Of a DNA stretch of 64,000 nt, positions 20,401-63,499 are shown in pieces. The translations under genes and the position numbers were made by a program. The first letter of the stretch is position 1; each line of letters opens with the position of its first letter. This DNA comes from Acorus gramineus (lineage: Eukaryota; Streptophyta; Magnoliopsida; Acorales; Acoraceae): the NCBI GenBank assembly GCA_030737835.1, contig JAUJYN010000022.1, positions 1,828,712 to 1,892,711 of the forward strand, in the 5' to 3' direction. The notes beneath the pieces were generated by a model. The model worked only from the letters and a program-made list of their open reading frames with translations, searched no databases and had not been told where the DNA came from.

Positions 20401-21413
20401 TGTTATATATGTGTCACTTTTTAGCCTATTGGTCACATTTGGGTCATTTCTGGCCATTTTTCAATTTTTCATTTCGATCGGAGCCGCTAAAATTTTGGAC
20501 TTTTAGCTATCTACGTGAGTTCGAGAACTCCGATTGAAAATCTAACTGCATATTATGAGTCCTGGTGCCATTTTGAGCCACTTATAAAAATTTCATCAAA
20601 TTCTAGTAATGTCTTAGAAAATTTTGCAGTTCCGAATCGTATCCGGGTTTTGACCGATTTTAAAGTGTCAAATGGGTGACTTTGACCAAGTCAAGTAGAC
20701 TTGGACCAAGTCAAAGAAGACCATTGACTAGGTCAATAGGTTTTGTTTTCTAGTTTGGTTGGGTTGACTCAAAGTCAATCCCCACCCACCCCCTTTTTCT
20801 CAAATAAATGCTAAGTGTGTGAGTGTGTGTGTGTGAGTGTGCTTGAGGTGGGCGTCCCCTTCATCTCCCTCTCCCTCTCACTCTCTCCTTCACTCCCTCT
20901 TCTTTTTTGTGCTAAATAGAAGTAGAAAAAGAAGGAGAAGAAGAAAGACTTAAAAAGGAAAAGAGAAGGTATGTGTGTGCAAACTTTGAGTGTTGTTGTT
21001 GTGCTTGATTCCCTTCTCTCTAACTCCCTCTCATGCCTCCCCCCCCCCAACCCCTGATTTCAGCCATTAAAGGCTTGAGGAGTGGCTGAGAAGGTGGTGG
21101 TGTTGGTGGTGGCGGTTGAGGTGGTTCGGTGCGCCAAGGGCACCCGATTTCCTCCCCTTTTCTTCCCCCTCCTTTGGTAAGCTCTCCTCCTCCCTTATCC
21201 TTGTTTAAATGTTTGATAAAGGCTCTTAGGGTGTCCATGTATGCCATGCATAGGGTTTAGGGTGGGTGTGTGGGCTGTGGAGGGGGTGGGGGAGGTTTGG
21301 GCGCGCGCGTCTGCGCGCGCAGGGGAGCGCTGGCGCGCAAGGCGCGCGAGCGTGCGCGCGGGGTGCTGGGCGGGCGCGCAATGAGCGCAGGCAGGACGCG
21401 CAATGCGCCAAGT
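20401..21413 (+). repeat. Truncated forward chromovirus LTR (5' part)
   Basis: It begins TGTTATATATGTGTCAC, the family LTR start, and continues through the promoter region to exon 1 (donor GTAAGC after 21,176) and the GC-rich block. It then stops at about 21,413, joined without an LTR end to the middle of exon 4 of the Tat antisense gene. The 3' half is gone, so this is an illegitimate junction and not an insertion boundary. Confidence 0.82.
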
Positions 21414-23232: not shown

Positions 23233-24327
23233 TGTTATATATGTGTCACTTTTTGCCTGCTGGTAACCATTGGAGCATTTTGGCAGTTTTTGAGTTTTTT
23301 TTTTCATTTTTTGATTGGAACCGCAAAATTTTGGACTGTTAGCTATCGTCCTCTGTTTGAAGACTCCGATTGAAAATCTAACTGCATATTATGTGTCCTG
23401 GTGCCATTTCAAGCCACTCACAAAAATTTCATCGAATTCTGGTACGTTTCAGAATTTCACAGTTCCGGGGCGTATCCGGGTTTTGACCGAGCGAGAAGTC
23501 ATTGGGAGAGTTGACTCGGTCAAAGTGGGCCCATGACTTGGTCAACCCTTTTTGACTTTTTGTGTGGTTGGGTTGACCCAAGTCAAATCCCACTTAAAAC
23601 CCACTTAACCTAATTAATCAAGCTTTAACCCTAATTAAGTTGAGTTGACTATTTAAGTGAGTAGCAAAAGTTGCCATGCACTATTCATCTTCTTCCCCAA
23701 CTCATTTTCTCTCTCCCCCTCTCTCCTTTTCTTGGTTTTGAGCCACCTAGAGTTCTTGAAACTCAAAACTCAAAACATAGAAAGGTTAGATCCGGTCCCG
23801 ATCTATCCCCCAGTGTTCTTGGATTCGAGTTCCGACAAGTTTGCCCCCCTCTAACCCCTTCTATTCTCCCCTGTTTTCAGCCCCTTTTGAGGTAGGAAGA
23901 GGTCTTGGTGGTGGAGATCCTTGGGGAGGCGTTTCGGTGGTGCGCGCGGGCTGTTGCGTTGGTGGTGCGCGCAGAGTGCGCGCGGGCCGAGGCACTGGGC
24001 GCGGGGCGTGCGGTGTGCGCGCGGGCTGCTGCGCTGGGGTGCAGCGAGCGCGCGGTGCACCCGGGGAGCTCGGTGGCGTGTCCTGGCGTGCGGGCAGGGG
24101 CTCGGCAGGGCGCCTGGGTGCGCGGGCTGGGGCGCGGCGGTGCATGCCGGGGCGGGTGGCCGTGCGGGTGGTTGCCTGGGGGTGCGGGAGTGAGTCGGGG
24201 TGCTCGGGCTAGTGTGCGTACGGGCCGTATGTACGTTTGCCCGAGTGTTGGGTATTTTTAGAGTATTTTTGTGTATTTTTGTGGTATTTGTGGATTTTAC
24301 TCACCAAGTTGATACCCTGTCTTGCAG

Positions 24328-25510
24328 ATCTTGACGGACGGTCGCGCGATGACCCGATTACCGGTGAGTGGGACAATCCAACCCAGTAGGGAGGTGCTAT
24401 ATGCACTTGGGCATATACCGTCCTCCCCTGGGGCACCATAGATTAATATTAACCTGTTTAATATGTAATCCATGCAAGCATGATTGATATGTAGTATGCA
24501 TGCTACCCTAGACTGAGTATGTTAGGGACTTGCACCCTTAGGTTGTGTAAGAGCCATGCATCTTGTCACCTTGTTATCATGCTAGGAAAGCCTCGGCCTT
24601 TGTATGCGTCCTATTAGTTTAATTTGTTAAATTAAATGCAACTTGTAATATTATAGCATGCCTTAGGGAATATTAAGGGGCCTTGCGAGGTCAACATTGA
24701 GACCCGGGCTAGGGTGCTCCGTGTTCCTTGTTTGGTTGTCGGGATGTCCTATATCGGGACCTCATGGTGCCCTCCCAAGGTTTCTTTTCCCGTCTATATT
24801 AATGCATGTTCCCCGCATCTTGGTTATGCGCCCTGGAGGAATTCTGATGAATTCAAGACACTAGAGTTGTAGAGATGTGTAGTCAGCGGATCCGAGTGGA
24901 TCATATGCGTGTGGGTAGGCTGTTTCTCTTCCCTTCATTGGATCCGTGTAGGGACTCCTCAGCGTTAGACAGGCTATCCTGACAGAGGGCTCCCATCAGT
25001 AGGCACCTCCTGATCTTGGACTTGGACTGTGCTGAATGTGGGAGTAGACCAGGCAAGCTACGGTGTGGAGGAGAGGCTATCGGTGGACCAAGGGTGATTA
25101 ACAGCCTAGTCAGTCCCAATATCCTATGTCACCTGTTGAGGGGTGAGGGTGAGGGTGTATGGATGTGTATGGATGTGTATGGATGATTATCAGTCCCAAT
25201 ATCCTATGTCACCTATTGAGGGGTGAGGGTGAGGGTGTATGGATGTGTATGGATGATTATAAGTCCCAATATCCTATGTCACCTATTGAGGGGTGAGGGT
25301 GAGGGTGTGGTGGTTCGGCGATGTACGAACTACTGGATTTATGTTGTATGCCACTTTGAGGCTAGTTGCTGATTATTTGTGGTTAATATAAACTGTGATG
25401 CATGGGTTGTGCTGTTCACTGAGCGTGTGGCTCACCCCTCGCATAATATTTTTCCAGTGATTACTGAGGAGGACTTGAAGGAGGAGCTCCCTGAGCGACT
25501 GCACCAGTAG
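24328..25510 (+). other. Candidate LTR mini-ORF, exons 2 and 3 (Tekay-2 left LTR)
   Basis: Exon 2 is 24,328-24,363 (36 nt) between CCTGTCTTGCAG and GTGAGTGGG. Exon 3 starts at 25,458 after ATTTTTCCAG and ends at TAG 25,508-25,510. The joined frame reads LDGRSRDDPITV then ITEEDLKEELPERLHQ. The upstream exon and donor were removed by the ~550-bp deletion. Confidence 0.5.
25111..25312 (+). repeat. Tandem repeat in LTR, 70-80 bp unit, three copies
   Basis: Copies starting at 25,113, 25,193 and 25,263 contain GTCCCAATATCCTATGTCACC followed by GGGGTGAGGGTGAGGGTG. A 10-bp GGATGTGTAT unit varies in number. The array is duplicated almost exactly in the right LTR (about 33,935-34,135), and related arrays lie at 56,575-56,815 and 62,725-62,965. 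Confidence 0.85.
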
Positions 25511-25864
25511 CGGAGTAGCGCTACATCCCGCGAGTTTTTGAGGCCATCAGCATCCTTCCTTTTTATTGTATGTATATATATTTCTGTGCTTGGGCACCCA
25601 GTTTGGATTATATTTGGATGTATGTGTGTATATTGGCTCTCACAGGACATTTGATTTGTATCGAGTCTGTAGTATGTTTTTGGATTACAGACTCAGTCTT
25701 TTAGCTTCGCTATCTGTGTATATATCATGTCAGCCTTGCTTTCATCTGTGTTATTGTCATTTTAGTTGTTGTTTAGAGTGATTTATTGATCTCCTGTTAG
25801 TTGCTGATATCATATATACACTTGCCGCGACCCGGGGACGGCCGCCCTGGGGCGTGACAAAAGT

Positions 25865-30574: not shown

Positions 30575-31511
30575 CACTGCACCAGTGGGGAGGATGAAGG
30601 CGCAGCTCTCCGGATCCCATCTCTCTGCCAACGCCTCCAGATAAGGACGATGGATGTGGAAGGGCTCGATCAAGAAAAAGGAACAGAAGCCCTCTCCGTC
30701 CATCAAGTCCCTCACTTCCTGCCCCAAGGAAGAATACCATCTCTTCGTCCCGTGCCACAAGGCTCGAATGCGATTTGGCCGTTGAAACAACAGAAGAAGG
30801 GGGGTTAGTCCAAAATGAAAGATGTCCGCAAGGTGAGAATCCTAAACAAAATTTTCATTCTAAACCATGCTTAGAGAAATAAATATACATATGCAAGCAT
30901 GAAATATTCAAAACATAAATACACCTCTTTTTACCCCATAAACACTCCCACTGTGGTCTATCTCTAAAGAAAAAAATCAAAAAAAGTTCACCATGCTTAA
31001 AACTACGTAAAACACACTTTCTTCTTGACATGTAAAGCATGCTTATAACACTCCCACCATAATCACGAACACATGCTTACATACCATCCTATCACTATCA
31101 CTTCTAAAGACATACTTATTTAAAGAAACAACAAAATTATTATTCCCTTTCACCATCTCTTGTATAAAAACCAAACACCCTATGTCTATAAATAAAGCAT
31201 CATATAAAGCCATAAAAAAAGCATGCTTATGAAATCCCACCGTGATCATTTTTTCATACACAAACAAGCATGCCTATTAAAAGGACGCATATATATATTT
31301 CTTACACATTTCATGCCACCGAAACATATGTATACATATATCTAGAATAAATTGACAAAGGGGAGATAGAGGCATACCATTGCTCATGTAGACCTGGAAG
31401 CCTCCGCCTCGGCCTCATCAGGATCGCCCATCCCATCGTCGTCTCCCTCCTCATCATCCGCCTCCTCCTCATCCATGGCCTCCTCGGCCTCAATCCCCAC
31501 ACCGGCCCCTG
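30575..31511 (-). pseudogene. Third copy of the Tat antisense PMD gene fragment (duplicated flank)
   Basis: This matches 22,303-23,232 (part of exon 2, intron 1, end of exon 1) up to and including CCCTG at the LTR junction. The PMD exon runs from 30,780 downward, and its acceptor AG is changed to AA. Both this copy and the left flank abut an LTR start at the same base, so they descend from one insertion event. In places the copy resembles Tat-1 more than Tat-2 (for example around 30,640-30,670). It is a displaced duplicate with no coding capacity. Confidence 0.82.
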
Positions 31512-34500
31512 TGCTATATATGTGTCACTTTTTGCCTGCTGGTAACCATTGGAGCATTTTGGCAGTTTTTGAGTTTTTTCGTTTTTCGATCAGAATCGTA
31601 AAATTTTGGACTGTTAGCTATCGTCCTATGTTTGAGGACTCCGATTGAAAATCTAACTGCATATTATGTGTCCTAGTGCCATTTCAAGCCACTCATGAAA
31701 ATTTCATCGAATTCCGATACGTTTCAGAATTTCACAGTTTCGCTGCGTATCCGGGTTTTGACTGAGCAAGAAGTCATTGGGAGAGTTGACTCGGTCAAAG
31801 TGGGCCCATGAATAGATCAACCATTTTTGTCTTTTTGTGTGGTTGGGTTGACCCAAGTCAAATCCCACTTAAAACCCACTAAACCTAATTAATCAAGCCT
31901 TATACCTAATTCAAGTTGGTTTGACTTATTTAAGTGAGTAGCAAATGTTGCCCTACACTATTCATCTTCTTCCCCAACTCATTTTCTCTCTCCCCCTCTC
32001 TCCTTTTCTTGGTTTTGAGCCACCTAGAGTTCTTGAAACTCAAAACTCAAAACATAGAAAGGTTAGATCCGGTCCCGATCTATCCCCCGGTGTTCTCGGA
32101 TTCGAGTTCCGACAAGTTTGCCCCCCTCTAACCCCTTCTATTATCCCCTGTTTTCAGCCCCTTTTGAGGTAGGAAGAGGTCTTGGTGGTGGAGATCCTTG
32201 GGGAGGCGTTTCGGTGCACGAAGAGCCTCCGGTTCCCTTCCTTTCCTCTCCTTTCCTTGGGTAAGGGTTCTTTCCTTCTTTTTCATGTTTAGATGCATGT
32301 TAGGAGGGTGGGGTTGAGTGTGGAGGGCGGCTGGTGGCTGTGGGTTGTGGTTGGGGGCGGTCGGAGGCCATTGGTGGTCAGTGGGTGGTGATAGAAGTGC
32401 TCGGGCAGGGTGGCTGTCTGCCCCGGGCAGGATGGCAGCACAGGCACAGCAGGCAGCGCAGCAGGCGTGTAGTGGCAGGGCGCGCGCGTGCGTGCGCGCA
32501 GACGTGCGCGCAGGGCGTGCGCTCGGGTGGCGCAGGCGCTGGTGTGCTATGCACGGGTGCTAGGCGCCGGGTGTGCTGGGCGTGGGTGCTGGGCGTTGGG
32601 CGCTGGGGCGCTGGACGCTGGGCACCATGCGGAAGCGTGCGCGCGGAGCGCTACGGAGAGGCGCAGGCAGGCTGTGATCGCGCGGCGGGGAGAGCAGTCG
32701 GTGCGAGCGAACGGGTGCGCGTGCGGGGCGCTGCGCTGGGGCGCAGTGCGCGCGGGTGCACCCGGGGGGGGGGGGCTGATCGAGTGGGTGATGCGCGTGG
32801 TGGTGCGCACGGAGTGCGTGCAGGGCGAGGCACTGGGCTCGGGGTGTGCGGTGTGCGCGCGGGCTGCTGCGCTGGGGCGCAGCGAGCGCGCGGTGCACCC
32901 GGGGAGCTCGGTAGTGTGTCCTGGCGAGCGGGCAGGGGCTCGTCAGGGCGCCTGGGTGCGCAGGCTGGGGCGCGGCGGTGTATCCGGGGGCGGGTGGCCG
33001 TGCGGGTGGTTGCCGGGGGTGTGGGAGTGAGTCGGGGTGCTCGGGCTAGCGTGCGTATGGGCCGTATGTACGTTTGCCCGAGTGTTGGGTATTTTTAGAG
33101 TATTTTTGTGGTATTTGTGGATTTTACTCACCAAGTTGATACCCTGTCTTGCAGATCTTGACGGACGGTCGCGCGACGACCCGATTACCGGTGAGTGGGA
33201 CAATCCAACCCAGTAGGGAGGCGCTATATGCACTTGGGCGTATACCGTCCTCCCCTGGGGCACCATAGATTAATATTAACCTGTTTAATATGTAATCCAT
33301 GCAGCATGATTGATATGTAGTATGCATGCTACCCTAGACTGAGTATGTTAGGGACTTGCACCCTTAGGTTGTGTAAGAGCCATGCATCTTGTCACCTTGT
33401 TATCATGCTAGGAAAGCCTCGGCCTTTGTATGCGTCCTATTAGTTTAATTTGTTAAATTAAATGCAACTTGTAATTTTATAGCATGCCTTAGGGAATATT
33501 AAGGGGCCTTGCGAGGTCAACATTGAGACCCGGGCTAGGGTGCTCCGTGTTCCTTGTTTGGTTGTCGGGATGTCCTATATCGGGACCTCATGGTGCCCTC
33601 CCAAGGTTTCTTTTCCCGTCTATATTAATGCATGTTCCCCGCATCTTGGTTATGCGCCCTGGAGGAATTCTGATGAATTCAAGACACTAGAGTTGTAGAG
33701 ATGTGTAGTCAGCGGATCCGAGTGGATCATATGCGTGTGGGTAGGCTGTTTCTCTTCCCTTCGTTGGATCCGTGTAGGGACTCCTCAGCGTTAGACAGGC
33801 TATCCTGACAGAGGGCTCCCATCAGTAGGCACCTCCTGATCTTGGACTCGGACTGTGCTGAATGTGGGAGTAGACCAGGCAAGCTACGGTGTGGAGGAGA
33901 GGCTATCGGTGGACCAAGGATGATTAACAGCCTAGTCAGTCCCAATATCCTATGTCACCTGTTGAGGGGTGAGGGTGAGGGTGTATGGATGTGTATGGAT
34001 GTGTTTGGATGATTATCAGTCCCAATATCCTATGTCACCTATTGAGGGGTGAGGGTGAGGGTGTATGGATGTGTATGGATGATTATAAGTCCCAATATCC
34101 TATGTCACCTATTGAGGGGTGAGGGTGAGGGTGTGGTGGTTCGGCGATGTACGAACTACTGGATTTATGTTGTATGCCACTTTGAGGCTAGTTGCTGATT
34201 ATTTGTGGTTAATATAAACTGTGATGCATGGGTTGTGCTGTTCACTGAGCGTGTGGCTCACCCCTCGCATAATATTTTTCCAGTGATTACTGAGGAGGAC
34301 TTGAAGGAGGAGCTCTCTGAGCGACTGCACCAGTAGCGGAGTAGCGCTACGTCCCGCGAGTTTCTGAGGCCATCAGCATCCTTCCTTGTTATTGTATGTA
34401 TATATATTTCTGTGCTTGGGCACCCAGTTTGGATTATATTTGGATGTATGTGTGTATATTGGCTCTCACAGGACATTTGATTTGTATCGAGTCTGTAGTA

Positions 34501-34687
34501 TGTTTTTGGATTACAGACTCAGTCTTTTAGCTTTCGCTATCTGTGTATATATTATGTCAGCCTTGCTTTCATCTGTGTTGTTGTCATTTTAGTTGTTGTT
34601 TAGAGTGATTTATTGATTCCCTGTATAGTTGCTGATATCATGTATACACTTGCCGCGACCCGGGGACGGCCGCCCTGGGGCATGACA
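31512..34687 (+). repeat. Tekay-2 right LTR (3,176 bp)
   Basis: It begins TGCTATATATG and ends GGGGCATGACA, followed by the right target duplication CCCTG. It retains the exon 1 donor and the complete GC-rich block lacking in the left LTR. The last ~1.6 kb are nearly identical to the left LTR, including the tandem repeat. Confidence 0.9.
32173..34336 (+). other. Candidate LTR mini-ORF, exons 1-3 (Tekay-2 right LTR)
   Basis: Exon 1 is open from 32,173 to 32,260 and ends CCTTGG|GTAAGG. Exon 2 is 33,155-33,190 (36 nt). Exon 3 starts at 34,284 and ends at TAG 34,334-34,336. Splicing in phase 1 gives EAFRCTKSLRFPSFPLLSLD, then LDGRSRDDPITV and ITEEDLKEELSERLHQ. Introns are about 0.9 and 1.1 kb. 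No in-frame AUG is visible in exon 1 (TAG at 32,170-32,172), so the start is unresolved. Confidence 0.5.
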
Positions 34688-42513: not shown

Positions 42514-45080
42514 TGTCACGCCCAGGGTGGCCGTCCCCGAGACGTGGCAATATATAAAGTATCAGCTATCAAGTACAAGAGGTCAACAATGACTACAATA
42601 AATAACACACAAGCTGGCAAAGCAATGATAACTGATAACTCAACTGAAAAGCGAAAGCATAAAATATCAATAAGTCTGTAAACCAAAATCATTATTACAG
42701 ACTTGAATACACAATCACTGTCCTGTGAGAGCCAAGTCTAGTCCAAATAAAATACAACCTGTGCCACATGCATGATTTACAATACATAAAATGACTCTAG
42801 GACTGCTGACAGCCTCGCACTCGCCACCCGGCGGACAGAACGCTCGACGCACATAAGACCACGCCACAGGGAAGCTCCAGCTCCACGCCCAACATTGCTC
42901 TTGAAAAGAAACAGTATGCGAGGGGTGAGCTACAAGCTCAGTGAGTGACTGGAAACCAATCACCATTACAACAGTTCAATGTTAAGGAATTTCCTTTCAA
43001 GGAAAACATGGGTGGAAACCCAATGGATAACAAGGTCACGCGGCTGCATGACCAACCTCACACTCACTCGCGGAGGGAGACTCTTGGGACTTTTGGGGAG
43101 AGACCACACCATTGGTCGAAGAGACGCAGAATTACTGGTCTACACAACACTACTGGATCATCTACATTGAGATAACTGCCCAACGATGTCTTTGAACATC
43201 AATACGTAAACGGACCCAACAACCATGGGAACGGACAAAAACGAATAAGTCATGTGGCGACGTGACTTCACCTCATCCTCACCCTCACCCCTAAGGGTGA
43301 CACAGGATTGTTGGAAGAAAACCTTTTTGTTCTACACCCTTCGTCATCTGGTAGCCCTCTCCTGAGTAGCCTCTACCTGGTATACTCCCATGATTAGTAC
43401 ATCTGCCGAATGCATCGGTAGTACCTAAAGGTGGGAGCCCTCTGTCAGGACAGCTTTAACATCGGGTAACTTCAACGCGGATCCGAAGAAGGGGAGAACG
43501 ATTCCACGCTCGCAATATCATCTGGTAGCCCTCTCCCGCGTAGCCTCTACCTGTCGGCCTTCCACGATCGGTACATCAGCCAGATGCGTACCGCGATACG
43601 CATCAGTAGCACATACAAGTGGTTGCACCCAAACAGGACAGCTTTGACGCTGGGGTATTCGACGCACGACGATGAAGGAAGCACCCCACGTTCGCAAAGC
43701 GAACCCTATGGGAAAGTCAACTACGCTCGATAATCACATATCGATGATAACGAATACTCTTGGACTCCCACACGAGTGCATCACTCAGACACAAGGGTTA
43801 CCTCTGCTCTCACGTAGAAATAAGCCCAAGGCATATAACCCAATGAGCGGTTCATATACGCGCCTAGCACGGGTCGGCCCAACTTATTGCCAAAGCTACC
43901 GGTTTAACAAAACCGATACAACAAATGAATTCTCCTGAATTCCATTCAAGTGCATCACACGGATGCAGGGGTGATTACATCGCTCGCGCACTAACTAATG
44001 AGGTACATCCCGACAGCGGGTCGTACCCACGCCTATTTCAGATAGGCCTAATTAGTTTTAACATATGCACGATCATCTAATAATTGACTATAAGGGTAAC
44101 CCCTAACATGGATTTACATCATAAACAACAAATCATACAACATGCATACAAGGTATGGCCCACTTAAACATGCATACATGGTCATTAATCATATAAGCAC
44201 ACAAGGCATAACTTAAGCATGCGTTGGATATCACCAACTTAAAAGGGAAGGGTCAAGCGCGATCTCGCACACTAACAGGTGCATGCCAATATTCCAAACG
44301 AACCTGAGTCGAGTAGAAAATCGCATCTACTTACTCAGTTTGTGCAGAGGGAGAGGGCGAGAGAGAGATCATCATCTCTTGAAGTTGGTCATAGCTTTGC
44401 CCCATTAGCATGGGCACAACAACTACACCACGCCCTCAAGTCTTATCGCAAGGGAATATTAGGCATGTGCTCGTTATTAACCCAGACTTAATCATGCTGG
44501 ATATTCCAATTAATATGGTAGTATTACTCATAGGGACTACCTAAGGCATGCTTATTCTATACATTCATGAAAACCCACATCACACATGCCCATACATGAA
44601 GGGCGCATGCATACATAATAATTCACACATGAATATACATAGGCAAGTATATGGTAGAAAAGGGGGTTCTACACAATATACGAGCTATACAAGCCTAGCA
44701 TACAAATATCTAACATATTTAGGGTGCAAGGAAGCCCTATGGATGTGCGATGCATGACTACGTGCATCGAGCGCACCCCGAAGGGTTGGATCGAACCACT
44801 CACCGATACCTGGATCGTCGCGCACCCCATCCGACGAGATCTGCAAGGCAAGGGTATCCAATTTGGTGAGTAAAATCACATTTAAAACACTTAGAATTTA
44901 CTAGAAATACCAAAGACTTAGACATGCACGCATACGGGCTCGCACGCATGCGAGCACGCACGCACTCACGCATGCCCGAGTGCCCCAGCACCTACCCGAG
45001 CCCCTGAACAGCCACACGCGCGGCCCCGCACGGGTACGCAAGCACGCACGTGCCCCCCAAGCCCACTGGCACCCAGACGC

Positions 45081-48000
45081 TGTCACGCCCCAGGCGTCCC
45101 CGAGATGTGGCAAAATAAAATATAATATCAGCTATCAATACCTGAGGTCAATAAGGACACCAATAACAATACACAAGGCGACAAAGCAAGATAATGATAA
45201 CTGACTGAAAAGCGGAAGCATAATATATAACAATGTCTGTAAATCAATAACATTATTACAGACCCGAATACACAATCAATGTCCTGTGAAAGCCAAGTCT
45301 AGACCAAAGAAAATACAACTTGTGCCACATGCACGATTTACAAAGCATAAAATGACTCTAGGAATGCTGACAGCCTCCCACTCGCGACCCGTCGGCAGAA
45401 CGCTCCACGCCCATAAGACCACGCCACAGGAAAGCTCCAGGTCCACGCCCAATACTGCCCCTAAAAAAAAGAGTATGCGAGGGGTGAGCTACAAGCTCAG
45501 TGAGTGGCTGGTAACCAATCACCATTCTACAATTCAATACATAATCAATTCCCTTTTTCAAGAAAAAACATGGGTAGAAACCCAATGGATAACAGGGTCA
45601 CGCGGTAGCGCGACCAACCTCACCCCCACCCTCACTCCCGGAGGGAGTCTTTTGGGACTTATGGGGAGAGACCATACTGTCGGTCGAAGAGACCCGGATT
45701 TACTGATCTAGAGACCATGCCGTCGGTCGAAGAGACCTGGACTTACTGGTCTACTCAACACTACTAGATCATCTACATCTAGATAATCGTCCAACGATGT
45801 CCTTTAACATCGATCACGAGACCGGACCCAACAACTATGGGAACGGTCGAACAACGAATGGGTCACGAGGCGACGTGTCTTCGCCTCATCCACACCCTCA
45901 CTCCTGAAAGGAGACATCTTGGGACTTTGGGAAGAGACTTAGACTGCTCTACACCCCTGGTCCACCGGTAGCCTCTCCCACCCTCGTGGCCTCCGCCTAG
46001 TCCTCTGACAGGTATAGCCAACGCCGGGGAGTTTCTACATCGGATCCAACGAAGGGGAGAACGATTCCACGCTCGCGACATCATTCATTAACCCTCTCCT
46101 GGGTAGTATCTACAACCCGATCTCCTCAACTCACCGCTCTACACCCTTGGTCTGCCAGTAGCCCTTTCCCACCCTCGTGGCCTCCACCTAGTCCACTCCC
46201 ACCATCCGTACTGTCCGACACATCGGAGGTACCTACGGACGGGAGCCCTCTGTCAGGTACAGCCAACGCCGGGGAGTTCCTACATCGGATCCAACGAAGG
46301 GGAGAACGATCCCATGTTCGCAAAGCGAAACCCAAAGGAAAACAACCACTCTCGATACTCGCTTATCGAGATATCACACACATGCATAACCACAACCAAC
46401 ACACTCATATTAACCTCAAAGTAGTCATAGTCCCTAAACGGGAGTAACTACACAAGTTAGAGGGTCGTAACATCGCCGATCCACCCCACGCTCACCCTTT
46501 AGGGGTGTCATGGGTCCTTTGGGACAAACTAGACCGCTCTCCACCCCTGGTCCACCCGGTAGCCCTTTCCCACCCTCGTAGCCTCGACCTAGTCCACTCC
46601 AACTACCAGTACTGTCCGAACACATCGGAGGTACCGGACGGAAGCCCTCTGTCAGGTCAGCCATCGCCGGGGAGTTCCTACATCGGATCCAACCAAAAGG
46701 AGAAGACAGCCTACTCACGCGCATACGATCCTGTTGGATCCGTCGACAACGATTTCTAACACTACTAATGTCATGAATTCTCAAGAATTCCTCCAGAGCG
46801 CATAACTAAGATGCGGAGAAGCATATATTATAACCACAAGGTTATAATATTCTCTAAGGCATGCTTACAACAATATAATCACATAATCCCATCTTGATTT
46901 AAATAAATTAAACTAAATGGGAACATGCATAGGTCGGGGCAAGGTGTCTAGGCATGCATAGGCCGCTATACATGATATAAGGGTGCATATCCCTAGCATA
47001 CAAAGTCTAAGGTGGCATGGATATATCATATTAATCATGCATGCATATCATTTACACATTATAGCTAGGGGGCCCCATCGATGCGCGACGCGCGTCTATG
47101 CGGGTTGAGCGCATCCCTAGAGAGGGGGGGAGGGATTGGAATCAAACCACTCACCTTACGACCCGGGACCTCGCGCATCCCATCCGACGAGATCTGCAAG
47201 GTAGGGGCATCCAACTGGTGAGAAACAATCCAATTTACAGATATAAATACATTAGAAATACCCAATACTCGGACATGCATGCATACGGGCTCGCACGCAT
47301 GCGAGCACGCACGTACGCACGCGAGTCCGAGTGCCCTGACACCTACCCGAACCCTTGGGCAGCCACACGCATGGCCCCCCACACGCGCACGCACGAATGC
47401 GCACGCACGCACGCACGCACCCCAGCACCATCAGTGCACTGCCGCGCGCCTGCCCGCACCCCCAGACGCGCTGCCACACACGCGCGCACGCTCGCGTGCA
47501 CCCGCGCACACTGCATGTCCAGCCCACGCGCCCTTGCGCAGCACCCCGCGCACGCCCCAGCACCCGCGCGCACTGGTCCCCTGCCCCGCGCCCAGGCGCA
47601 TGCCCAGGCGCACTGCTCCGGGCACGCGCACGCTCGCGCGCACGCCCGCGCGCACGCCTGCGCGCACCCTTGCTCGCGCCAGCGCCTGCGCACACCCGCG
47701 CGACCACTCCGCGTGCACCCGCGCATTCGCGCTCAAGCGCCCGCGCGCGTCTGCGCGTCTGACTGCGCCTGCCAGCGCCCGCCTGCGTGCGCGCCTGCGC
47801 GTGCACGCGCGCAGACGACCCGAAACGGGCGCCCAGCCAACCCCTACCCCTTTTTAACCCTTCCCAACCTCTCACACACACCCTAACCCATCTACCTTGC
47901 ATGCATGACCTCCCTAACATCCCCTTAAGCCATGAAAACCAAGAAAAGATTGGGAGGATCTCACCTTGGAGGGGGAACGAAAGGGGGAGGTTCGGGGGCC

Positions 48001-48734: not shown

Positions 48735-49570
48735 CGCGCTGCCCCGCGCACGCGCCTCGCACTCGCGCACGTCGGCGCGCCTGACTGCACTCGCCTGCGC
48801 CCCTCTGCGCATGCACACGCGCCGACAGCCCCACAAAAGCACCCAGCCACCCAACACCCCTCCCCAGCCCCCCTCACACACCCTAACTCAATCATCTAGC
48901 ATGCATGACCCCCTTACAACCCCTAACACATGAAAAACCAAGGAAAAGATGGGGGAGAGCTCTCCAAAAGAGGGGGAATGAATGGGGGAGATTCGGGAGC
49001 CCTCGATGCACCCGCGACCACCTCAACCACCACCACCACTACCACCACCTCCACAGCCTCTCCTCAGCCTTCTTTGGCTGAAAAACAAGGGGGGGGGAAG
49101 ACATGAGAGGGAGCTTGAGAGAAGAGAAACCACAACAACAACAACACACACAAACCTACCTTCTTGCACTTCCTTCTTCACCTTCTCCTTCAATTGCTTC
49201 TTCCTCCTCCTTCTTAACACACAAAGTGTCACGCCCTAGGGCGGCCGTCCCCGATACGTGGCAACAATATATAATATCAGCAGTCTATACAAGAGATCAA
49301 TAAAATACTCTAAACAACATCAAAAATGACAACACAGACAATAATGTAGCTGACATAATATATACAAATAGCAGAAGCTTAAACGACTGAGTCTGTAATT
49401 CAAAGACATATTACAGACCCGAATACATAATCAATTGTCCTGTGAGAGCCAATATAAACAATGACATCCAAATACAAGTGTGTGCCCAAGCACGAATAAC
49501 AATACATACAATCAAGAAGGGGATGCTGATGGCCTCTCACTCGCAGAACCCAAAATGTGACGCTGCTCCG

Positions 49571-51136
49571 CTACTGCTGTGGTGCCTCGGGGAGCTCCTC
49601 CTTTAGATCCGACTCAGATATAACTGGAGGAAAAGAATATGCGAGGGGTAAGCCACACGCTCAGTGAATGGCACAATCTATGCAACACAACTCATATTAA
49701 CCTTAAATAATTATAGTCCCTAAACGGGAGTAACTACACAATCTAGTGGGTCGTAAGACCGTCGACCCACCCCACCCTCACCCTTTAAGGGGGTGACATG
49801 GGCCTTTTCAGACTAGACCACTCTCCACCCCTGGTCCACCCGGTAGCCTCTCCCACACTCTGTAGCCTCTACCTGGTATACTCCCACGATCAGCACTGTC
49901 CGACGCATCGGAGGTACCTACAGATGGGAGCCCTCTGTCAGGTCAGCTTTCCAACGCCGGGGAGTCCCTACTCGGATCCAACCAAAAGGAGAAGACAGCC
50001 TACTCACACGGATACGATCCTCTTGGATCCGTCGACAACGATTTGTAACACTACTAATGTCACGAATTCTCAAGAATTCCTCCAGGGCGCATAACTAAGA
50101 TGCGGGGAAACATATATTATAACAACAAGGTTATAATATTCTCTAAGGCATGTTTATAACAATATGTTCCCATTTTGATTTAATTAAATTAAACTAAATG
50201 GGAAACATTTATAGATCGGGGCTTTCCAATCAAGGGACATGGTGTCCAGGCATGTAGGCCTCTATACATGATATAAGAGTGCATATCCTATCATACAAGT
50301 CTAAGTGGCATGGTTACATCATATTAATCATGCATTGCATAGCTTTTCATTTATCACAAGTTAATACACAATTATGGTGCCCTAGGGGAGGGCAATGCAC
50401 GCTTACATGCATCGAACGCCTTCCTACTGGGTTGGATTGACCCACTCACCGAAACCCGGGTCGTTGCGTGACCGTCCGTCAAGATCTGCAAGACATAGGC
50501 ATTCAATATGGTGAGTAAACTACACAAATACATAAGAAATACACTAGAAATACCCAATACACGGACGAGCATGCATATGGGCCCGCACGCACGGGCGTAC
50601 GCACGCGAGTCCGAGTGCCTCGACACCCTCCCGAACCCTCGGGCAGCCATACGCGTGGCCCCCCCGCACGCGCACGCACGAATGCGCCCCTGCGCCCCTG
50701 GCGCACGGCCGCGCCCCTGCCCGTGCGCACCGCGCGTCCAGCCCAGCGCGTACCCGCGCGCACTGCGCCCCCGAGCAGCACCCCGCGCGTATGCTCGCGC
50801 GTCTGCGCGTACGCGTGCGCGCCCGCCAGCGCGCCAGTCTGCGCGTGCCAGCTCCAGTTTGCGCGCGCAGATGCGCGCGCACGCGCAGGGATGGCTCCGC
50901 GCGCGCGCCTGAGCCCCTTCAACCCCCTCCTCAGCCCACCCACACCCCCTAACACCTATGCAAAGCATGCATAACCATTTAAACACCCTAATCAATCATC
51001 TAAACAAGCTAGGGGAGGAGGAAGACTTACCAACAAGGAGGGAAAGGAAAAGGGAGGAAACTCGGGTGCCCTTTGCGCACCAACCCGCCACAACCGCCAC
51101 CACCAAGACCACCACCACCTCAGCCACTCTCAAGGC
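49571..51136 (-). other. Candidate LTR mini-ORF, exons 1-3 (solo LTR C)
   Basis: Exon 1 is open from 51,136 to 51,031 and ends CTTGTTG|GTAAG (residues GWCAKGTRVSSLFLSLLVD). Exon 2 is 50,485-50,450 (36 nt, LDGRSRNDPGFV). Exon 3 is 49,623 down to TAG 49,573-49,571 (ISESDLKEELPEAPQQ). All splice sites are canonical and all joins are phase 1. This is the cleanest copy of the proposed spliced unit, and it lies in a solo LTR, so it does not depend on gag-pol. Confidence 0.55.
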
Positions 51137-51372
51137 CTAAAATGGCTGAAAACAGAGGTGGGGGAAGCCATGAGAGGGAGGTAGAGAAAGGGAAATCAAA
51201 ACAAAAACCATACAAAGGTAGATCACAACAATACCTTTCTTTTTCCCTTCTAGGGTTTTCTTCTTCTTCTTCTTCTACAACCTCTAATGGCCAAAAGAAA
51301 GAAGAGGGAGTGATGGATTGTGTGTGAGAGAGAGAGAGATGGGGAAGAAAAAGTGGGCGCCCAACACTAGTG

Positions 51373-51398
51373 ACACACACACACACACACACACACAC
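51373..51398. repeat. (AC)n microsatellite
   Basis: About thirteen uninterrupted AC units lie within solo LTR C, just upstream of exon 1 on the minus strand. Confidence 0.9.
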
Positions 51399-52312
51399 TC
51401 ACGCACTTGGAACATTAGGGTTTGGTGGGCTTGACTTTGAGTCAACCCAACCACAAAAAAAAAATAAAAGGATTTGACCAAGTCAATGGTCAATTTGACT
51501 TGGTCCAAGTCTTCTTTGACTTGGTCAAGTCCCCCCTTTGACATTCCCACTCGGTCAAAACCCGGATACGATTCAGAACTGCCAAATTCTGAAACGTTAC
51601 CGGAATTCGATGAAATTTTCGTGAGTGGTTCGAAATGGCACCAGGACACATAATGTGCAGTTAGATTTTCAATCAGAGTTCTCGAGCTCATGCAGATAGC
51701 TAAAAGTCCAAAATTTTAGCGGTTCTGATCGAAAAAAAGAAAAATCTGAAAAACTGCCAGAAATGTCCCAAAGGTGACCAGAAGGCTAAAAGTGACACAT
51801 ATATAACACAAAGAGGGGAAAAAGAGACCAAGAAAGGGAGCTTGAGAGAGTTCCACGAAATGGGAGAGAGGGAGAGAGAGAGAGAGAAGGCAAAAATGTA
51901 TTTTTCAAGCCCAAATAGTGTCTAAGGGTGACCCTAAGGGGGTGGTGAGGTTAGGGTTAAGCTCACCCTCACTCAACAACTCATTTTTTGCTTTATTGGG
52001 AAGCGTGTGGAGAAGCACCACATACTCAAAAATATATCACCCACCAAAACCAGTAACGGCCAAACCCGGATGCAGTTTGGAACTGCATATTTTTTAAAAC
52101 GTTACCGGAATTCAATGAAATTTTTATGGGTAGTACAAAACAGTACCAGGACCAATAATATGCAGTTAGATTTCCAATCAGAGTACTCCAACTCCCGCAG
52201 GTAGCTAAAAGCAAAAAATTTAGCAACTCCGATAGAAAAAGAAAAAGGCCCTGAATGACCCAGATGTGACCAAGGCATAACCGAAATGGCTCCAAATGAC
52301 ACAGGCATAACA

Positions 52313-53316: not shown

Positions 53317-54020
53317 TGTCACGCCCCAGGGCGGCCGTCCCCGGGACGCTGCAAGTGTATATATGATATCAGTCTAAACAGGAGTTCAATAACATACTCA
53401 CACAACAGCTAAAATGACAATACAGACAAAGTAGGGGCTGACATGATATATACACAAATAGCGGAAGCTAAAAGACTGAATCTGTAACTCAAAAACATAG
53501 TACAGACTCGATACATAATCAACTGTCCTGTGAGAGCCAATATATACAAGACATCCAAATAATATACAAACACGTGCCCAAGCACGGAATATAACACATA
53601 TAATAAAAAAGGGATGCTGATAGCCTCTGATACTCGCGGGACGTGGCTACTCCGCTACTGATGAAGTCCCTCGGGGAGCTCCTCCTCTGGATCCGACTCA
53701 GATGACTCTGGAGAAAAATATTATGCAGGGGTGAGCCACACGCTCAGTGAACAGCACAACCATGCATCACAGCTTATATTAACCACAACCAGATGTTATA
53801 ATCCACAATCTCATTATTAAAAGCCACAAAATGGCAACAGCTATACAGTCCAATGGGTCGCTATCGCCAACCCACTACACCCTCACCCTCACCCCTCAAT
53901 AGGTGACAAAGGATATTGGGACTTACAATCCAGTAGGTCGCTACATCGCCGACCCACCACACCCTCACCCTCACCCCTCAATATGGTGACATAGGATATT
54001 GGGACTGACTAGGCTGATGG
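53317..54020 (-). repeat. LTR fragment E (subfamily 1, terminal 704 bp)
   Basis: It starts TGTCACGCCCC and runs to the GTCCCAATATCC repeat region, where Tekay-3 begins. Exon 3 of the mini-ORF is at 53,707 down to TAG 53,657-53,655, in the conserved 16-codon frame (SSESDPEEELPEGLHQ). Confidence 0.8.
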
Positions 54021-54284
54021 TGTTATATTTGTGTCACTTTTAACCTGCTGGTAACCGTTGGAGCGTTCTGGATGTTTTTCATTTTTTTTCGGTTTTCGAT
54101 CGGAACCGCTAATTTTTGGACTGTTAGCTATCGTCCTGAGTTAGAGGACTCCGATTGGAAATCTAACTGCATATTTGGTGTCCTGGTGCCATTTTAAGCC
54201 TCTCACAAAAATTTCGTCGAATTCCGGCAACGTTTCCAAAAATTTCGCAGTTCCGGGGCGTATCTGGGTTTTTAAGTCGCTCGC

Positions 54285-54292
54285 TATATATA
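54285..54292 (+). promoter_or_regulatory. TATA box of the Tekay-3 5' LTR
   Basis: TATATATA is preceded by CTCGC and followed after ~20 bp by the start of the pyrimidine-rich leader (CACTATTCATC) shared by all family LTRs. The same box is at 60,405-60,412 in the 3' LTR. Confidence 0.65.
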
Positions 54293-54529
54293 TGTGAGAT
54301 CTAATTTTTGATGAGCACTATTCATCATCCCTACCAAATCATTTTCTCTCTCCCCTCTCTCCTTTTCTCACTTTTGAGCCCCCTAGAGCCCTCAAACCCA
54401 AAAACCTAAAGCATAGGAAGTGTAGATCGGGTCCCGATCTACACCCCGGTGCTTTCAAATCCGGATTTCGGCAAGTTTTGCCCCTCCGTCCCCCCTCTCT
54501 TCTCCTCTGTTTTGGTCCATTTCGAGGGC

Positions 54530-57017
54530 CAAGAGAGATCCGGGTGTTGGAAGCCTTTTGGGAGAGGTTTCGGTGCGCGGAGAGCAACCGGATTTCCCTT
54601 CCTCCCCTTGGTAAGCCTCTTTTCCTCTCTTTTCTTGCATAGATGTATGTTAGGAGGGTGGTTTTGTGGTTGGGAGGCAGTCGGCGGCGGTGGGTGGCCG
54701 TTGGAGGGCTGTGGTGGTGGTCGGAGGCCTTGGGGTGGTCGGTGTTGGTGGTAGAGGAGCTCGGGTAGGAAGTTAGGCAGTCCGAGCAGAGTGTTGGGCA
54801 GTCCCGGGTGTGTTAGCAGCAGGCGCAGCAGGTGGGCGCACCAGGTGGCCGGGCGTGGCGTGCGCGCGGCGTGCTCTTGGGTGGTGCTGCAGGGCGTGCA
54901 GGGTAGGCTGCAGGGCTAGCTCGGGTAGGATGGCTGGGCTGTGCGCGCGGGCAAGCCGGGCTGGCAGGCTGGGCACGCAGGCGAGCAAGGCAGGAGGTGC
55001 TCGGGCATCAGGCGAGCAGTGCCGGGCGTGCAGGCGAACGGTGCTCGGGCCACTCGGCGATGCGCGCAGGCAGGCAGCGCGGGCATGCTGGCAGGCGCGT
55101 TGGGCGCGTGCTGCCAGGCGCGCTGGGCACGTGCTGCGCGGGCGTGCGCGTGGGCGCTGGGTGAGGGTCCCGGGTGCTGGGCGCTGAGCGCTGGGAGCTG
55201 GTCGCGGATACCGGGTGTGCTGGGCGAGGGTGCTGAGCGCTGGGCGCAGGGGCGCTGAGCGCTGGGCACCGCAGAGGTGCATGCGCGCGGGGCGCTGGGC
55301 AGAGGCAGGCGTGCGCGCGGTGAGGAGGGCAGAGGCGGAGGCGTGCTGGGCGCAGGCGTGGGGGTGCAGTGGGTGCGAGCGGGTGGTGCGCGCGTGGTGC
55401 GCGCGGGGCGTGTGGCTGCGCGCGGATAGGGGTGCGGGGTGCTCGCGGGCCAGCAGTGCGGGGTGCTCGCGGGCGGCTGCGCTGGGGCGCAGGGGGCGCG
55501 CGGTGCACCAGGGAGGTTTGGCGGCGTGTCCAGGCGGCGAGCAGGGGACCGGCGGGGCGCGGGGTGCGTGGGCTGAGGCGCGGCGGTGCACCCGGGCGGT
55601 CGGATGGCCGTGGGAGTGGTTGCCGGCCGTGCGGGTGGTTGCCGGAGTGCTCGGGCTAGCGTGCGTGCGGGTCGTATGCACGTTTGCCTGAGTGTTGGGT
55701 GTTTGATTTTGGGTTTTGTGTATTTTTGAGTGTTTAGCAGTATTTGAGGATTTTTACTCACCATATAAATGTCTGTCTTGCAGATCTCGACGGACGGTCG
55801 CGCGTCGACCCGATCTTCGGTGAGTGGGACGATCCAACCCAGTAGGGAGGCGTGACATGCACTTGGGCGTGTACCGTCCTCCCCTGGGGCACCATAGTAA
55901 ATATTAACCTGTTTAAATATGAAAGCTATGAATGCATGACAATCTGTAGTATGCATGCCACCCTAGATTTGTATGCTAGGGACTTATACCCTTAGGACCG
56001 TGTAAGAGCCATGCACCCTGTTATCATGTTTCCATGCTAGGAAAGCCCCGACGATGCATGTTCCCATTTAGTTTATTTATTTAAATAAAATGTGAGCATG
56101 TGATTATTAGTCTGACTTAGTGAATATCATAGGGAGGGGCCTCGCGAGGACAGCGGTGAGACCCGGGCTAGGGTACTCCGTGTTCCTTGTTTGGTTGTCG
56201 GGATGTCCTATATCGGGACCTCACGCTGCCCTCCCAAGGATTCTTTCCCCGTTAATATTCCAACCTTGTTATAATGCATGTTCCCCGCATCTTGGTTATG
56301 CGCCCTGGAGGAATTCTGAGGAATTCAGGACATTAGAGTTGGTAGGATGTGTTGTCTGCGGATCCGAGTGGATCATATGCGATGGATAGGCTGTTCTGTT
56401 CCCTTCGTTGGATCCTTTAGAGACTACCCCGGCGTTGGAAAGGTCGTCCCGTGCAGGGGCTTCCATCAGTAGGCGCCTCCTGATTTGGTAGAAGGACTGC
56501 GCTGAACGTGGGAGTGGCCAAACGACCTACGGAGTGGGGAGAGACTATCGGTGGACCAAGGGTGACCAACAGCCTAGTCAGTCCCAAGAGCCTAGGTCAC
56601 CTATTGTGGGTGAGGGTGAGGGTATGGTGGGCCGGCGATGTGGCGACCCACTGGATTGTAAGTCCCAATATCCTAGGTCACCCTGTTGAGGGTGAGGGTG
56701 AGGGTGTAGTGGGTTGGCGATAGCGACCTGCTGGTTTTGTGTAGTTAGTCCCAATATCCTAGGTCACCCAGTGAGGGTGAGGGTGAGGGTGTAGTGGGTT
56801 GGCGGTAGCGACCCACTGGATTGCGGAGTTGTTGCCATTTTGTGGCTTTGTGTAATGTGTTTGTGGGTTAATGATAACTGGTTTTGGTTAATATAAATTG
56901 TGATGCATGGGTCGTGCTGTTCACTGAGCGTGTGGCTCACCCCTCGCATAATATTTTTCTCCAGTGTCATCTGAGTCGGATCTGGAGGAGGAGCTCCCCG
57001 AGGGACTTCATCAGTAG
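54530..57017 (+). other. Candidate LTR mini-ORF, exons 1-3 (Tekay-3 5' LTR)
   Basis: Exon 1 ends at 54,610 (CCCCTTG|GTAAGC). In the phase-1 frame it reads EAFWERFRCAESNRISLPPL and is open upstream to about 54,298, without an AUG. Exon 2 is 55,784-55,819 (36 nt, LDGRSRVDPIFV). Exon 3 is 56,965 to TAG 57,015-57,017 (SSESDLEEELPEGLHQ). The 1.2 kb intron 1 holds the GC-rich block and intron 2 holds the G-rich repeats. Confidence 0.52.
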
Positions 57018-57471
57018 CGGAGTAGCGCCACGTCCCGCGAGTATCAGAGGCTATCAGCATCCCTTGTGCTTGTATGTATTATTTTCCGTGCTTGGGCACG
57101 TGGTTGTGTTGTATTTGGACGTCTTTGTATATATTGGCTCTCATAGGACATATGATTACGTATCGAGTCTGTAGTATGTTTTGATTACAGATTCAGTCTT
57201 TTAGCTTCCGCATTTTGGTGTGTATATCATGTCAGCCCTGCTTTTGCTGTCTGTGTGTCATTTTAGCTGTTGTGTGCGTATGTTATTGAACTCTTGTTAC
57301 TGATATCATATATACACTTGCCGCGTCCCGGGGTCGGCCGGCCCTGGGGCGTGACACCTTCTTCAGAGCCTGGTCCTGTCAGAGCCAATGGTCCTCTTTT
57401 CGTAGAGATGAGTCCTAGGATTGCTATATGTGTATTCTGATCCTAGTGTCTGGTTTTCTTAGGTTGCTGAT

Positions 57472-58738: not shown

Positions 58739-58739
58739 G

Positions 58740-59530: not shown

Positions 59531-59534
59531 ATCG

Positions 59535-60144: not shown

Positions 60145-63100
60145 TGTTATATATGTGTCACTTTTAACCTGCTGGTAACCGTTGGAGCGTTCTGGCAGTT
60201 TTTCATTTTTTTCGATTTTCGATCGAACCGCTAATTTTTGGACTGTTAGCTATCGTCCTGAGTTAGAGGACTCCGATTGGAAATCTAACTGCATATTTGG
60301 TGTCCTGGTGCCATTTTAGGCCTCTCACGAAAATTTCATCGAATTCCGGCAACGTTTCTGAAATTTCACAGTTCCGGGGCGTATCCGGGTTTTAAGTCGC
60401 TCGCTATATATATGTGAGATCTAATTTTTGATGAGCACTATTCATCATCCCTACCAATTGCTTTTCTCTCTCCCCTCTCTTATTTTCTCCCTTTTGAGCC
60501 CCTTAGAGACCTCAAACCCAAAAACCTAAAGCATAGGAAGTGTAGATCGGGTCCCGATCTACACCCCGGTGCTTTCAAATCCGGATTCCGGCAAGTTTTG
60601 CCCCTCCGTCCCCCTCTCTTCTCCTCTGTTTTGGGCCATTTCGGAGGCCAAGAGAGATCCGGGCGTTGGAAGCCTTTTGAGAGAGGTTTCGGTGCGCGGA
60701 GAGCAACCGGATTTCCCTTCCTCCCCTTGGTAAGCCTCTTTTCCTCTCTTTTCTTGCATAGATGTATGTTAGGAGGGTGGTTTTGTGGTTGGGAGGCGGT
60801 CGGCGGCGGTGGGTGGCCGTCGGAGGGCTGTGGTGGTGGTCGGAGGCCTTGGGGTGGTCGGTGTTGTGGTAGAGGAGCTCGGGTAGGGAGTTAGGCAGTC
60901 CGGGCAGAGTGTTGGGCAGTCCCGGGTGTGTTAGCAGCAGGCGCAGCAGGTGGGCGCACCAGGTGGCCGGGCGCGCGGGTGCGTGCATGTAGGCGTGCGC
61001 GCGGCGTGCGCTCGGGTGGTGCTGCAGGGCGTGCAGGGTAGGCTGGCAGGGCTAGCTCGGGCAGGATGGCTGGGCTGTGCGCGCGGGCAGGCCGGGCTGG
61101 CAGGCTGGGCGCGCAGGCGAGCAAGGCAGGCGGTGCTCGGGCATCAGGCGAGCAGTGCCGGGCGTGCAGGCGAACGGTGCTCGGGCCACTCGGCGATGCG
61201 CGCAGGCAGGCAGCGCGGGCATGCTAGCAGGCGCGTTGGGCGCGTGCTGCCAGGCGCGCTGGGCACGTGCTGCGCGGGCGTGCGCGTGGGCGCTGGGTGA
61301 GGGTCCCGGGTGCTGGGCGCTGAGCGCTGGGAGCTGGTTGCGGATACCGGGTGTGCTGGGCGAGGGTGGTGAGCGCTGGGCGCAGGGGCGCTGGGCGCAG
61401 GGCACCGCAGAGGTGCATGCGCGCGGGGCGCTGGGCAGAGGCATGCGTGCGCGCGGTGAGGAGGGCAGAGGCGGAGGCGTGCTGGGCGCAGGCGTGGGGG
61501 TGCAGTGGGTGCGAGCGGGTGGTGCGCGTGGGTAGAGGCTGGTAGGTGCGCGCGGATAGGGGCTGGAGGTGCGCGCGGGGTGCACGCGGGGCGTGCGAGA
61601 GTGCTCGCGGGCCAGCGCGGGGTGTGCGCGGGCGGCTGCGCAGGGGGCGCGTGGTACACCAGGGAGGTTCGGCGGCGTGTCCAGGCGGCGGGCAGGGGCC
61701 CGGCGGGGCGCGGGGTGCGTGGGCTGAGGCGCGGCGGTGCACCTAGGTGGTCGGGTGGCCGTGCGGGTGGTTGTCGGCCGTGTGGGTGGTTGCCGGAGTG
61801 CTCAGGCTAGCGTGCGTGCGGGTCGTATGCACGTTTTGGGTGTTTGATTTTGGGTTTTGTGTATTTTTGAGTGTTTAGCAGTATTTGAGGATTTTACTCA
61901 CCGCATTGATTACCCTGTCTTGCAGATCTTGACGGACGGTCGCGCGACGACCTGATCTCCGGTGAGTGGGACGATCCAACCCAGTAGGGAGGCGTTACAT
62001 GCATTTGGGCGTGTACCGTCCTCCCCTGGGGCACCATAGTAAATATTAACCTGTTTAATATGAAAAGCATGATAATCTGTAGTATGCATGCCACCCTAGA
62101 CTTTGTGTGCTAGGGACTTGTACCCTTAGGACCCGTATAAGAACCATGCACCCTGTTATCATGTTTCCATGCTAGGAAAGCCCTGACCGATGCATGTTCC
62201 TATTTAGTTTAATTTAATGAGTAATAAAATGCGAGCATGTGATTATTAGCCGTCTTAGTGAATATTATAGGGGAGGGGCCTCGCGAGGACAGCGGTGAGA
62301 CCCGGGCTAGGGTACTCCGTGTTCCTTGTTTGGTTGTCGGGATGTCCTATATCGGGACCTCACGCTGCCCTCCCAAGGATTCTTTCCCCGTTAATATTCA
62401 AACCTTGTTATAACTAGTATGCATGTTCCCCGCATCTTGGTTATGCGCCCTGGAGGAATTCTGAGGAATTCAGGACATTAGAGTTGGTAGGATGTGTTGT
62501 CTGCGGATCCGAGTGGATCATATGCGATGGATAGGCTGTTCTGTTCCCTTCGTTGGATCCCTTAGAGACTACCCCGGCGTTGGAATGGTCGTCCCGTGCA
62601 GGGGCTTCCATCAGTAGGCGCCTCCTGATTTGGTAGAAGGACTGCGCTGAACGTGGGAGTGGCCAAACGACCTACGGAGTGGGGAGAGACTATCGGTGGA
62701 CCAAGGGTGACCAACCGCCTAGTCAGTCCCAAGAGCCTAGGTCACCTATTTGAGGGTGAGGGTGAGGGTATGGTGGGCCGGCGATGTGGCGACCCACTAG
62801 ATTGTAAGTCCCAATATCCTATGTCACTCCTGTTGAGGGGTAGGGTGAGGGTGTAGTAGGTTGGCGATAGCGACCTGCTGGATTGGTGTAGTTAGTCCTA
62901 ATATCCTTGGTCACCCAGTGAGGGTGAGGATGAGGGTGGAGTGGGTTGGCGGTAGCGACCCACTGCATTGCGGAGTTGTTGCCATTTTGTGGCTTGTGTA
63001 ATGTGTTTGTGGATTATTGATAACTGGTTTTGATTAATATAAATTGTGATGCATGGGTCGTGCTGTTCACTGAGCGTGTGGCTCACCCCTCGCATAATAT

Positions 63101-63499
63101 TTTTCTCCAGTGTCATCTGAGTCGGATCTGGAGGAGGAGCTCCCCGAGGGACTTCATCAGTAGCGGAGTAGCGCCACGTCCCGCGAGTATCAGAGGCTAT
63201 CAGCATCCCTTGTGCTTGTATGTATTATTTTCCGTGCTTGGGCACGTGTTTGTGTTGTAGTTGGATGTCTTTGTATATTTATTGGCTCTCACAGGACATA
63301 TGATTATGTATCGAGTTGTAGTATGTTTTGATTACAAATTCAGTCTTTTAGCTTCCGCATTTGGTGTGTATATCATGTCAGCCCTGCTTTGGTCTGTGTG
63401 TCATTTTAGCTGTTGTGTGAGTATGTTATTGAACTCTTGTTACTGATATCATATATACACCTGCCGCGTCTCGGGGTCGGCCGGCTTTGGGGCGTGACA
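60145..63499 (+). repeat. Tekay-3 3' LTR (3,355 bp)
   Basis: Colinear with the 5' LTR; ends GGGGCGTGACA. It is followed directly by GC-rich DNA of another LTR, without a matching target duplication. Confidence 0.9.
60666..63163 (+). other. Candidate LTR mini-ORF in Tekay-3 3' LTR (stop in exon 1)
   Basis: Exon 1 ends at 60,729 and has a TGA about 50 nt before its end relative to the 5' LTR copy. Exon 2 is 61,926-61,961 (36 nt). Exon 3 is 63,111 to TAG 63,161-63,163 with the same 16 residues as the 5' LTR. Splice sites are intact. Confidence 0.42.

Follow-up and report, generated by a model that had tools for sequence, protein, structure and literature searches.

A possible spliced, non-coding 5' leader inside the long terminal repeats of Ty3/gypsy elements from Acorus gramineus

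LTR/Gypsy elements, which carry long terminal repeats (LTRs), are reported to make up 28.0% of the Acorus gramineus genome (PMC10281966). A 64-kb stretch of this genome, referred to below as the window (assembly GCA_030737835.1, contig JAUJYN010000022.1, positions 1,828,712 to 1,892,711), is rich in nested Ty3/gypsy elements, and the question it raises is whether their LTRs contain introns and what the RNA would serve for if these were removed. A sequence-only reading of the window had proposed a protein-coding mini-gene of several exons hidden in the LTR. The answer that we favour, and only tentatively, is a different one, namely that the LTR may carry a multi-intron, spliced, non-coding 5' leader and that new copies would usually be made from the unspliced RNA.

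Two groups of LTRs were compared, subfamily 1 (S1) and subfamily 2 (S2), the borders being defined by the common termini TGTTATAT... and ...GGGGCGTGACA. The anatomy is given here for copy C, an S1 LTR of 2582 bp on the minus strand (49227..51808) with TGTT...GACA termini. It had been described as a solo LTR, and its flanks carry the CTTTG target duplication on both sides, as expected for one; it is apparently nested in the S2 LTR I. All further features of C lie on the same strand. Exon 0 (51235..51355), CT-rich and then GAA-rich, was taken from a transcription start estimated by alignment to the stretch behind the TATA-like boxes of four other S1 copies (B5, B3, E and F). It is followed by candidate intron 0 of 89 nucleotides (nt) (51146..51234, GTATTG...TTTTCAG), by exon 1 between acceptor 0 and the donor GTAAGT (51031..51145), by intron 1 of 545 nt and 65% GC (50486..51030, GTAAGT...CTTGCAG), by exon 2 of 36 nt (50450..50485), by intron 2 of 826 nt (49624..50449, GTGAGT...CTCCAG) with a possible stem-loop behind the exon-2 donor (50366..50437), and by exon 3 as far as TAG (49571..49623). 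The remainder of the LTR (49227..49570) was similar to a 3' untranslated region in composition, with 39% U.

The other S1 copies on the plus strand were A (4943..6442, truncated at the 5' side), B5 (23233..25859, with a primer binding site (PBS)-like sequence next to it at 25863), B3 (31511..34687), E (54021..57356, ahead of a gag frame at 57472) and F (60145..63499), and on the minus strand the truncated copy D (53317..54019). A partial S1-like LTR, M (20401..21420, plus strand, 3' border approximate), contained intron 0 and donor 1. The S2 copies G, H and I, all on the minus strand, had exon 2 at 18206..18242, 44804..44840 and 47155..47193, respectively. The seven S1 copies represented about three lineages, A and C, B5 and B3, and D, E and F, with a divergence of 8.6% for A/C, 3.0% for B5/B3, 4.3% for E/F and 11.3% for D/E; every codon test described below was therefore limited.

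Exon 3, which had been described as 2 nt, 16 codons and TAG, was found at all seven positions claimed for it (6,056; 25,458; 34,284; 56,965 and 63,111 on the plus strand, 49,623 and 53,707 on the minus strand), and exon 2 was 36 nt long in all six S1 copies that retained it. The joins were of phase 1 as proposed, the frames of A, B5, B3, E and F having been translated and that of C read off its sequence. The GTAAG donor of exon 1, reported as recurrent, was present in C, B3, E and F and also in M, with GTGAG in G, but it was deleted in B5, and copies A and D start only behind its position.

The splicing proposal is supported by the distribution of invariant sequence around exon 2. When nine copies (six S1 and three S2) were aligned, the three longest invariant runs were the acceptor CTTGCAG|ATCT (11 nt), the donor G|GTGAGTGG (9 nt) and a branch-site-like CTCACC (6 nt), and in 5000 column shuffles the longest run reached 11, 9 or 6 nt in 0, 0.06 and 6.8% of cases, respectively. 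The motif CTCAC was located 23-26 nt upstream of the exon-2 acceptor in all nine copies. It was also located 22-26 nt upstream of the exon-3 acceptor in 11 of 12 copies, C having CTTAC instead (for copy x this spacing was measured from an anchor placed a few nt short), and the stretch preceding that acceptor was recognisable in all 12. The donor, the branch-like site and the acceptor were conserved around exon 2 in every one of the nine copies, and elsewhere not all sites were present in all copies. The S2 copies retained both CTTGCAG|ATCT and GGTGAGTGG, while their exon 2 measured 37 nt in G, 37 nt in H and 39 nt, including an in-frame stop, in I, and their sequence behind exon 3 differed from that of S1. 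Splice signals were therefore preserved where the length and frame of exon 2 were not. No precisely intron-less copy was found, since intron sequence flanked exon 2 in nine of nine copies and preceded exon 3 in 12 of 12.

It was also observed that a 29-nt block, CACTGAGC.TGT.GCTCACCCCTCGCATA, occurred upstream of the exon-3 acceptor (6014-6042 and counterparts) 12 times in both subfamilies with 0-5 mismatches, the five arising where D has a one-base gap. Its conservation appears stronger than a branch site requires.

Further, a GT...AG segment that the sequence-only reading had not mentioned, candidate intron 0, was found upstream of exon 1 in six of the eight copies examined. It was 89 nt long in C, and its counterparts of 82-96 nt measured 95 nt in M, 96 nt in B3, 95 nt in G, 96 nt in B5 and 82 nt in I. 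A TATA-like box and a CT-rich start were seen in B5, B3, E, F and G. The half of the earlier interpretation that concerned a spliced unit gained support from this additional segment and from the splice signals being best conserved around exon 2; the half that concerned a gene product gained none, as described below.

We proposed that transcription would start approximately 290-455 nt into the LTR, and that the transcript would consist of exon 0, the short intron 0, exon 1, the GC-rich intron 1, an exon 2 of 36-39 nt, intron 2 and exon 3. Past exon 3 it would continue to gag when the LTR is a 5' LTR, or reach a 3' end within the same LTR when it is solo; solo LTRs as autonomous transcription units are possible. 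Through splicing, the leader would become shorter and lose most of its AUGs upstream of gag. In element E the leader before gag is 3157 nt long unspliced and would be 839 nt long if spliced, with the number of upstream ATGs decreasing from 45 (14.3 per kb) to 8 (9.5 per kb). According to retroviral logic, reverse transcription of a spliced RNA should remove the introns from the LTRs, as the ends of the RNA are the source of new LTRs. Reverse transcription would usually use the unspliced RNA, since introns are still present in the copies and each new LTR derives from the ends of the RNA. If the introns are truly spliced and nevertheless persist in the LTRs, the element must have a way of separating its spliced RNA from the unspliced RNA, and its RNA would be divided into a translated and a copied part.

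A means of such sorting might be an RNA structure behind the exon-2 donor. By analogy with the retroviral stretch from donor to packaging signal, it would mark the unspliced RNA for packaging, whereas the spliced RNA would lose the structure and be translated, and the sorting would explain how LTR introns survive reverse transcription; this extension is considered very improbable. The folded stretch, 72 nt from intron position 13 behind the donor, was taken from eight copies (all but B3 of those with exon 2) and formed stable single folds in both subfamilies, with z-scores of -3.4 (A), -3.1 (B5), -1.7 (C), -3.0 (E), -4.0 (F), -3.4 (G), -2.1 (H) and -1.3 (I). In the column-wise analysis 77.7% of cells were paired versus 75.3% after shuffling, a value reached by 2 of 500 shuffles, and the covariation score was 0.176 (14 of 500), while a control structure slid by one column scored 0.181, as high as the actual one. 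RNAalifold recorded changes on both sides in 2 of 16 pairs. The weak column-wise covariation was partly due to lineages pairing in different registers. When 80-nt segments were scanned along LTRs A, B5, C and E, mean z-scores of -0.23 to -0.48 were obtained with 7-16% of segments below -2, and the better of the segments nearest the stem-loop ranked 2 of 72, 6 of 106, 15 of 104 and 16 of 142, respectively. The stem-loop segments were no outlier within the LTRs, and it is therefore called a possible stem-loop only. No Rfam family reached its gathering threshold anywhere in the window, the stem-loop included. One conserved LTR block, searched as an exact pattern against bacterial and archaeal genomes and viral contigs, had no matches.

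Several observations weigh against a spliced leader. The GC content of intron 1 was 63-70% and its U content 19-24% in C, B3, E and G, unlike plant introns, which are described as U-rich (PMC3735527, section 11), and this speaks against efficient splicing. The GT...AG occurrences counted for candidate intron 0 are raw counts; E and F had no acceptor 0 and an altered donor 0. Besides the deletion of donor 1 in B5, this site was, by eye, altered or absent in I, and C had a TG repeat in the start region with no clear TATA box. The longest invariant run around exon 3 was TCACTGAGC, which lies upstream of the acceptor and is no splice site (column-shuffle P 0.006), and the next invariant runs sat partly in exon 3 and in the 3' part. 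Eight upstream ATGs would survive splicing in E. The ATGs of the exons, counted from the estimated transcription starts, were absent from exons 0-3 of C, B3, E and F and from exons 0-1 of M, but this lack was only mildly unusual for the composition (P 0.02-0.31). Copy G contained seven ATGs in exons 0-2 versus 3.8 expected, exon 2 of A and of B5 contained one each, not in the proposed frame, and exon 2 of G, H and I (three of three S2 copies) contained one or two, out of frame. An AUG-free leader as a general feature was rejected on this recount, ATGs being present in the exons of A, B5 and S2.

Among the other explanations, the one that survives best holds that the conserved blocks serve the promoter, replication or packaging and resemble splice sites by chance, with little or no splicing; we regard it as unlikely. 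Blocks away from the splice sites were indeed equally conserved among C, B5 and E, the hairpin block of intron 2 with 73% and the 3' part of the LTR with 74-79% identity versus 72% for exon 2, and the GC-rich intron 1 points in the same direction. Such elements would nevertheless have to place a branch-like site, an acceptor and a donor in the right order and spacing and as the longest invariant runs, two of them at sites that had been named beforehand, and the additional GT...AG segment upstream would be one more coincidence.

The protein-coding mini-gene, the product of which would end LDGRSR.DP..V-ISESDLKEELPE...Q, is considered improbable, although the codon comparison was partly in its favour. 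The frame was kept in the six S1 copies with both exons, and no indels were found within exon 2 or exon 3 among S1 copies. The ratio of nonsynonymous to synonymous differences per site (pN/pS) over exons 2 and 3 was 0.43 in the proposed frame for C, B5 and E, and 0.48, 0.52, 0.53, 0.56 and 0.58 for other sets of copies from the three lineages; for C, B5 and E the two alternative frames had values of 1.29 and 1.47. Column shuffling gave p values of 0.008 (C, B5, E), 0.094 (A, B5, F), 0.033 (A, B5, E) and 0.102 (C, B3, F) for both exons, and of 0.029-0.098 for exon 3 alone. Three of the four close pairs had a low pN/pS (A/C 0.30, B5/B3 0.31, D/E 0.29, with 2-7 changes each). What remains is a weak coding-like signal. 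A pN/pS as low was recorded in 5.3% of 1433 LTR segments of the same size and in 10.2% of 186 stop-free ones; the pair E/F gave 1.01, and exon 2 alone gave p values of 0.23-0.66. The synonymous codon differences cited earlier do exist, but they were a selection from all changes: the variable columns of exons 2 and 3 in C, B5 and E numbered 9, 7 and 11 of 28 at the three codon positions, respectively.

No usable start codon was found for the same mini-gene: with the estimated transcription starts, no ATG in the proposed exons led through to exon 2 in the spliced frame. An in-frame ATG was present at 51211 in C, within candidate intron 0, and another at 31945 in B3, 11 nt upstream of the estimated start; both frames run into a stop ahead of donor 1 if intron 0 is retained. 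The frame was broken in all three S2 copies. The identity over C, B5 and E was 72% for exon 2 and 68% for exon 3, which is ordinary for the LTR, because 37% and 50% of LTR segments, respectively, were at least as conserved, so the exons did not exceed their flanks. Protein searches with the conceptual spliced peptides yielded no match at E<=10 (64-amino-acid query, 4 candidates; 133-amino-acid query, 24 candidates), the sensitivity of such short queries being low. An unspliced read-through of exon 2, ending GEWDNPTQ, was also tried as the coding end and rejected (pN/pS 0.62 and 0.77; column-shuffle p 0.25 and 0.47; not kept in S2).

Just as improbable is the capture by the LTR of the 5' end of a host gene, with promoter and leader introns, the exons being relics without selection: the leader does look like an ordinary plant gene start, with a TATA-like box in several copies, a CT-rich start, a GAA-rich exon in C and M and a short first intron, but splice signals that S1 and S2 have both retained, although the interior of exon 2 has changed, point to a later constraint.

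The elements that would bear the spliced leader have features of Ty3/gypsy LTR retrotransposons, including LTRs, the PBS-like site behind B5 and, over four frames, Pfam domains of gag, protease, reverse transcriptase, RNase H and integrase; the integrase core (rve) scored under its curated cut-off and Integrase_H2C2 over its own. The chromovirus label rests on resemblance, because the chromodomain region falls outside the analysed sequence: both integrase frames examined end ahead of it, one at the window edge and one at a junction near 30575. Judging by sequence resemblance, the elements may belong to Tekay. The first 293 codons of the gag frame at 57472 gave 13 protein matches at E<=1e-10 among 7997 scored candidates, and the nine best were all from Acorus, with 86-96% identity, Acorus gramineus proteins among them.

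Copies E and F enclose a 2.8-kb internal part with this gag frame. No pol frame of at least 200 amino acids was found in the internal part of 54021-63499, nor any PBS with at most one mismatch to the PBS sought, and the element is probably a non-autonomous deletion derivative. The regions upstream of B5 (22294-23232) and B3 (30569-31510) were 93.5% identical over 943 aligned bases, the integrase frame runs out near 30575 into the stretch upstream of B3, and CCCTG is found at the outer ends of both LTRs; the likeness of their flanks likely reflects tandem duplication or recombination. At 4629-4943 a minus-strand LTR end (4937-4629) adjoins the plus-strand LTR fragment that begins at 4943, forming an inverted junction of two truncated LTRs.

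Among the known systems suited for comparison, BARE is a Ty1/copia element. In barley, BARE1 has separate RNA pools, one of them spliced as demonstrated by reverse transcription PCR, and is in this respect a plant LTR retrotransposon similar to the one proposed here, whereas its 104-nt intron lies immediately behind gag, where pr begins, and not in the LTR (PMC3735527). Plant LTR elements are generally without introns according to a review (PMC12786077), with exceptions such as Ogre and EVADE, which have functional introns, that of EVADE being positioned across the protease domain (PMC12786077, PMC6317226). Cer1 of C. elegans is a Gypsy/Ty3 element in which the spliced RNA and the unspliced genomic RNA have separate tasks; its spliced RNA, however, encodes the protein CERV, and its LTRs are 491-492 bp long (PMC10309623). 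The Tekay/Del chromoviruses of seed plants share the Ty3-type gag, protease, reverse transcriptase, RNase H and integrase as well as long LTRs, while LTR introns are not mentioned in the passage describing them (PMC6317226). No description of introns inside a plant LTR was found in the literature searched, which was mostly open-access, and earlier reports may exist.

If they are spliced, the LTR-internal introns would constitute a new form of the known spliced plant retrotransposons, and solo LTRs belonging to the family may act as transcription units with spliced RNA. The division of plant retrotransposon RNA between translation and packaging would then become directly testable.
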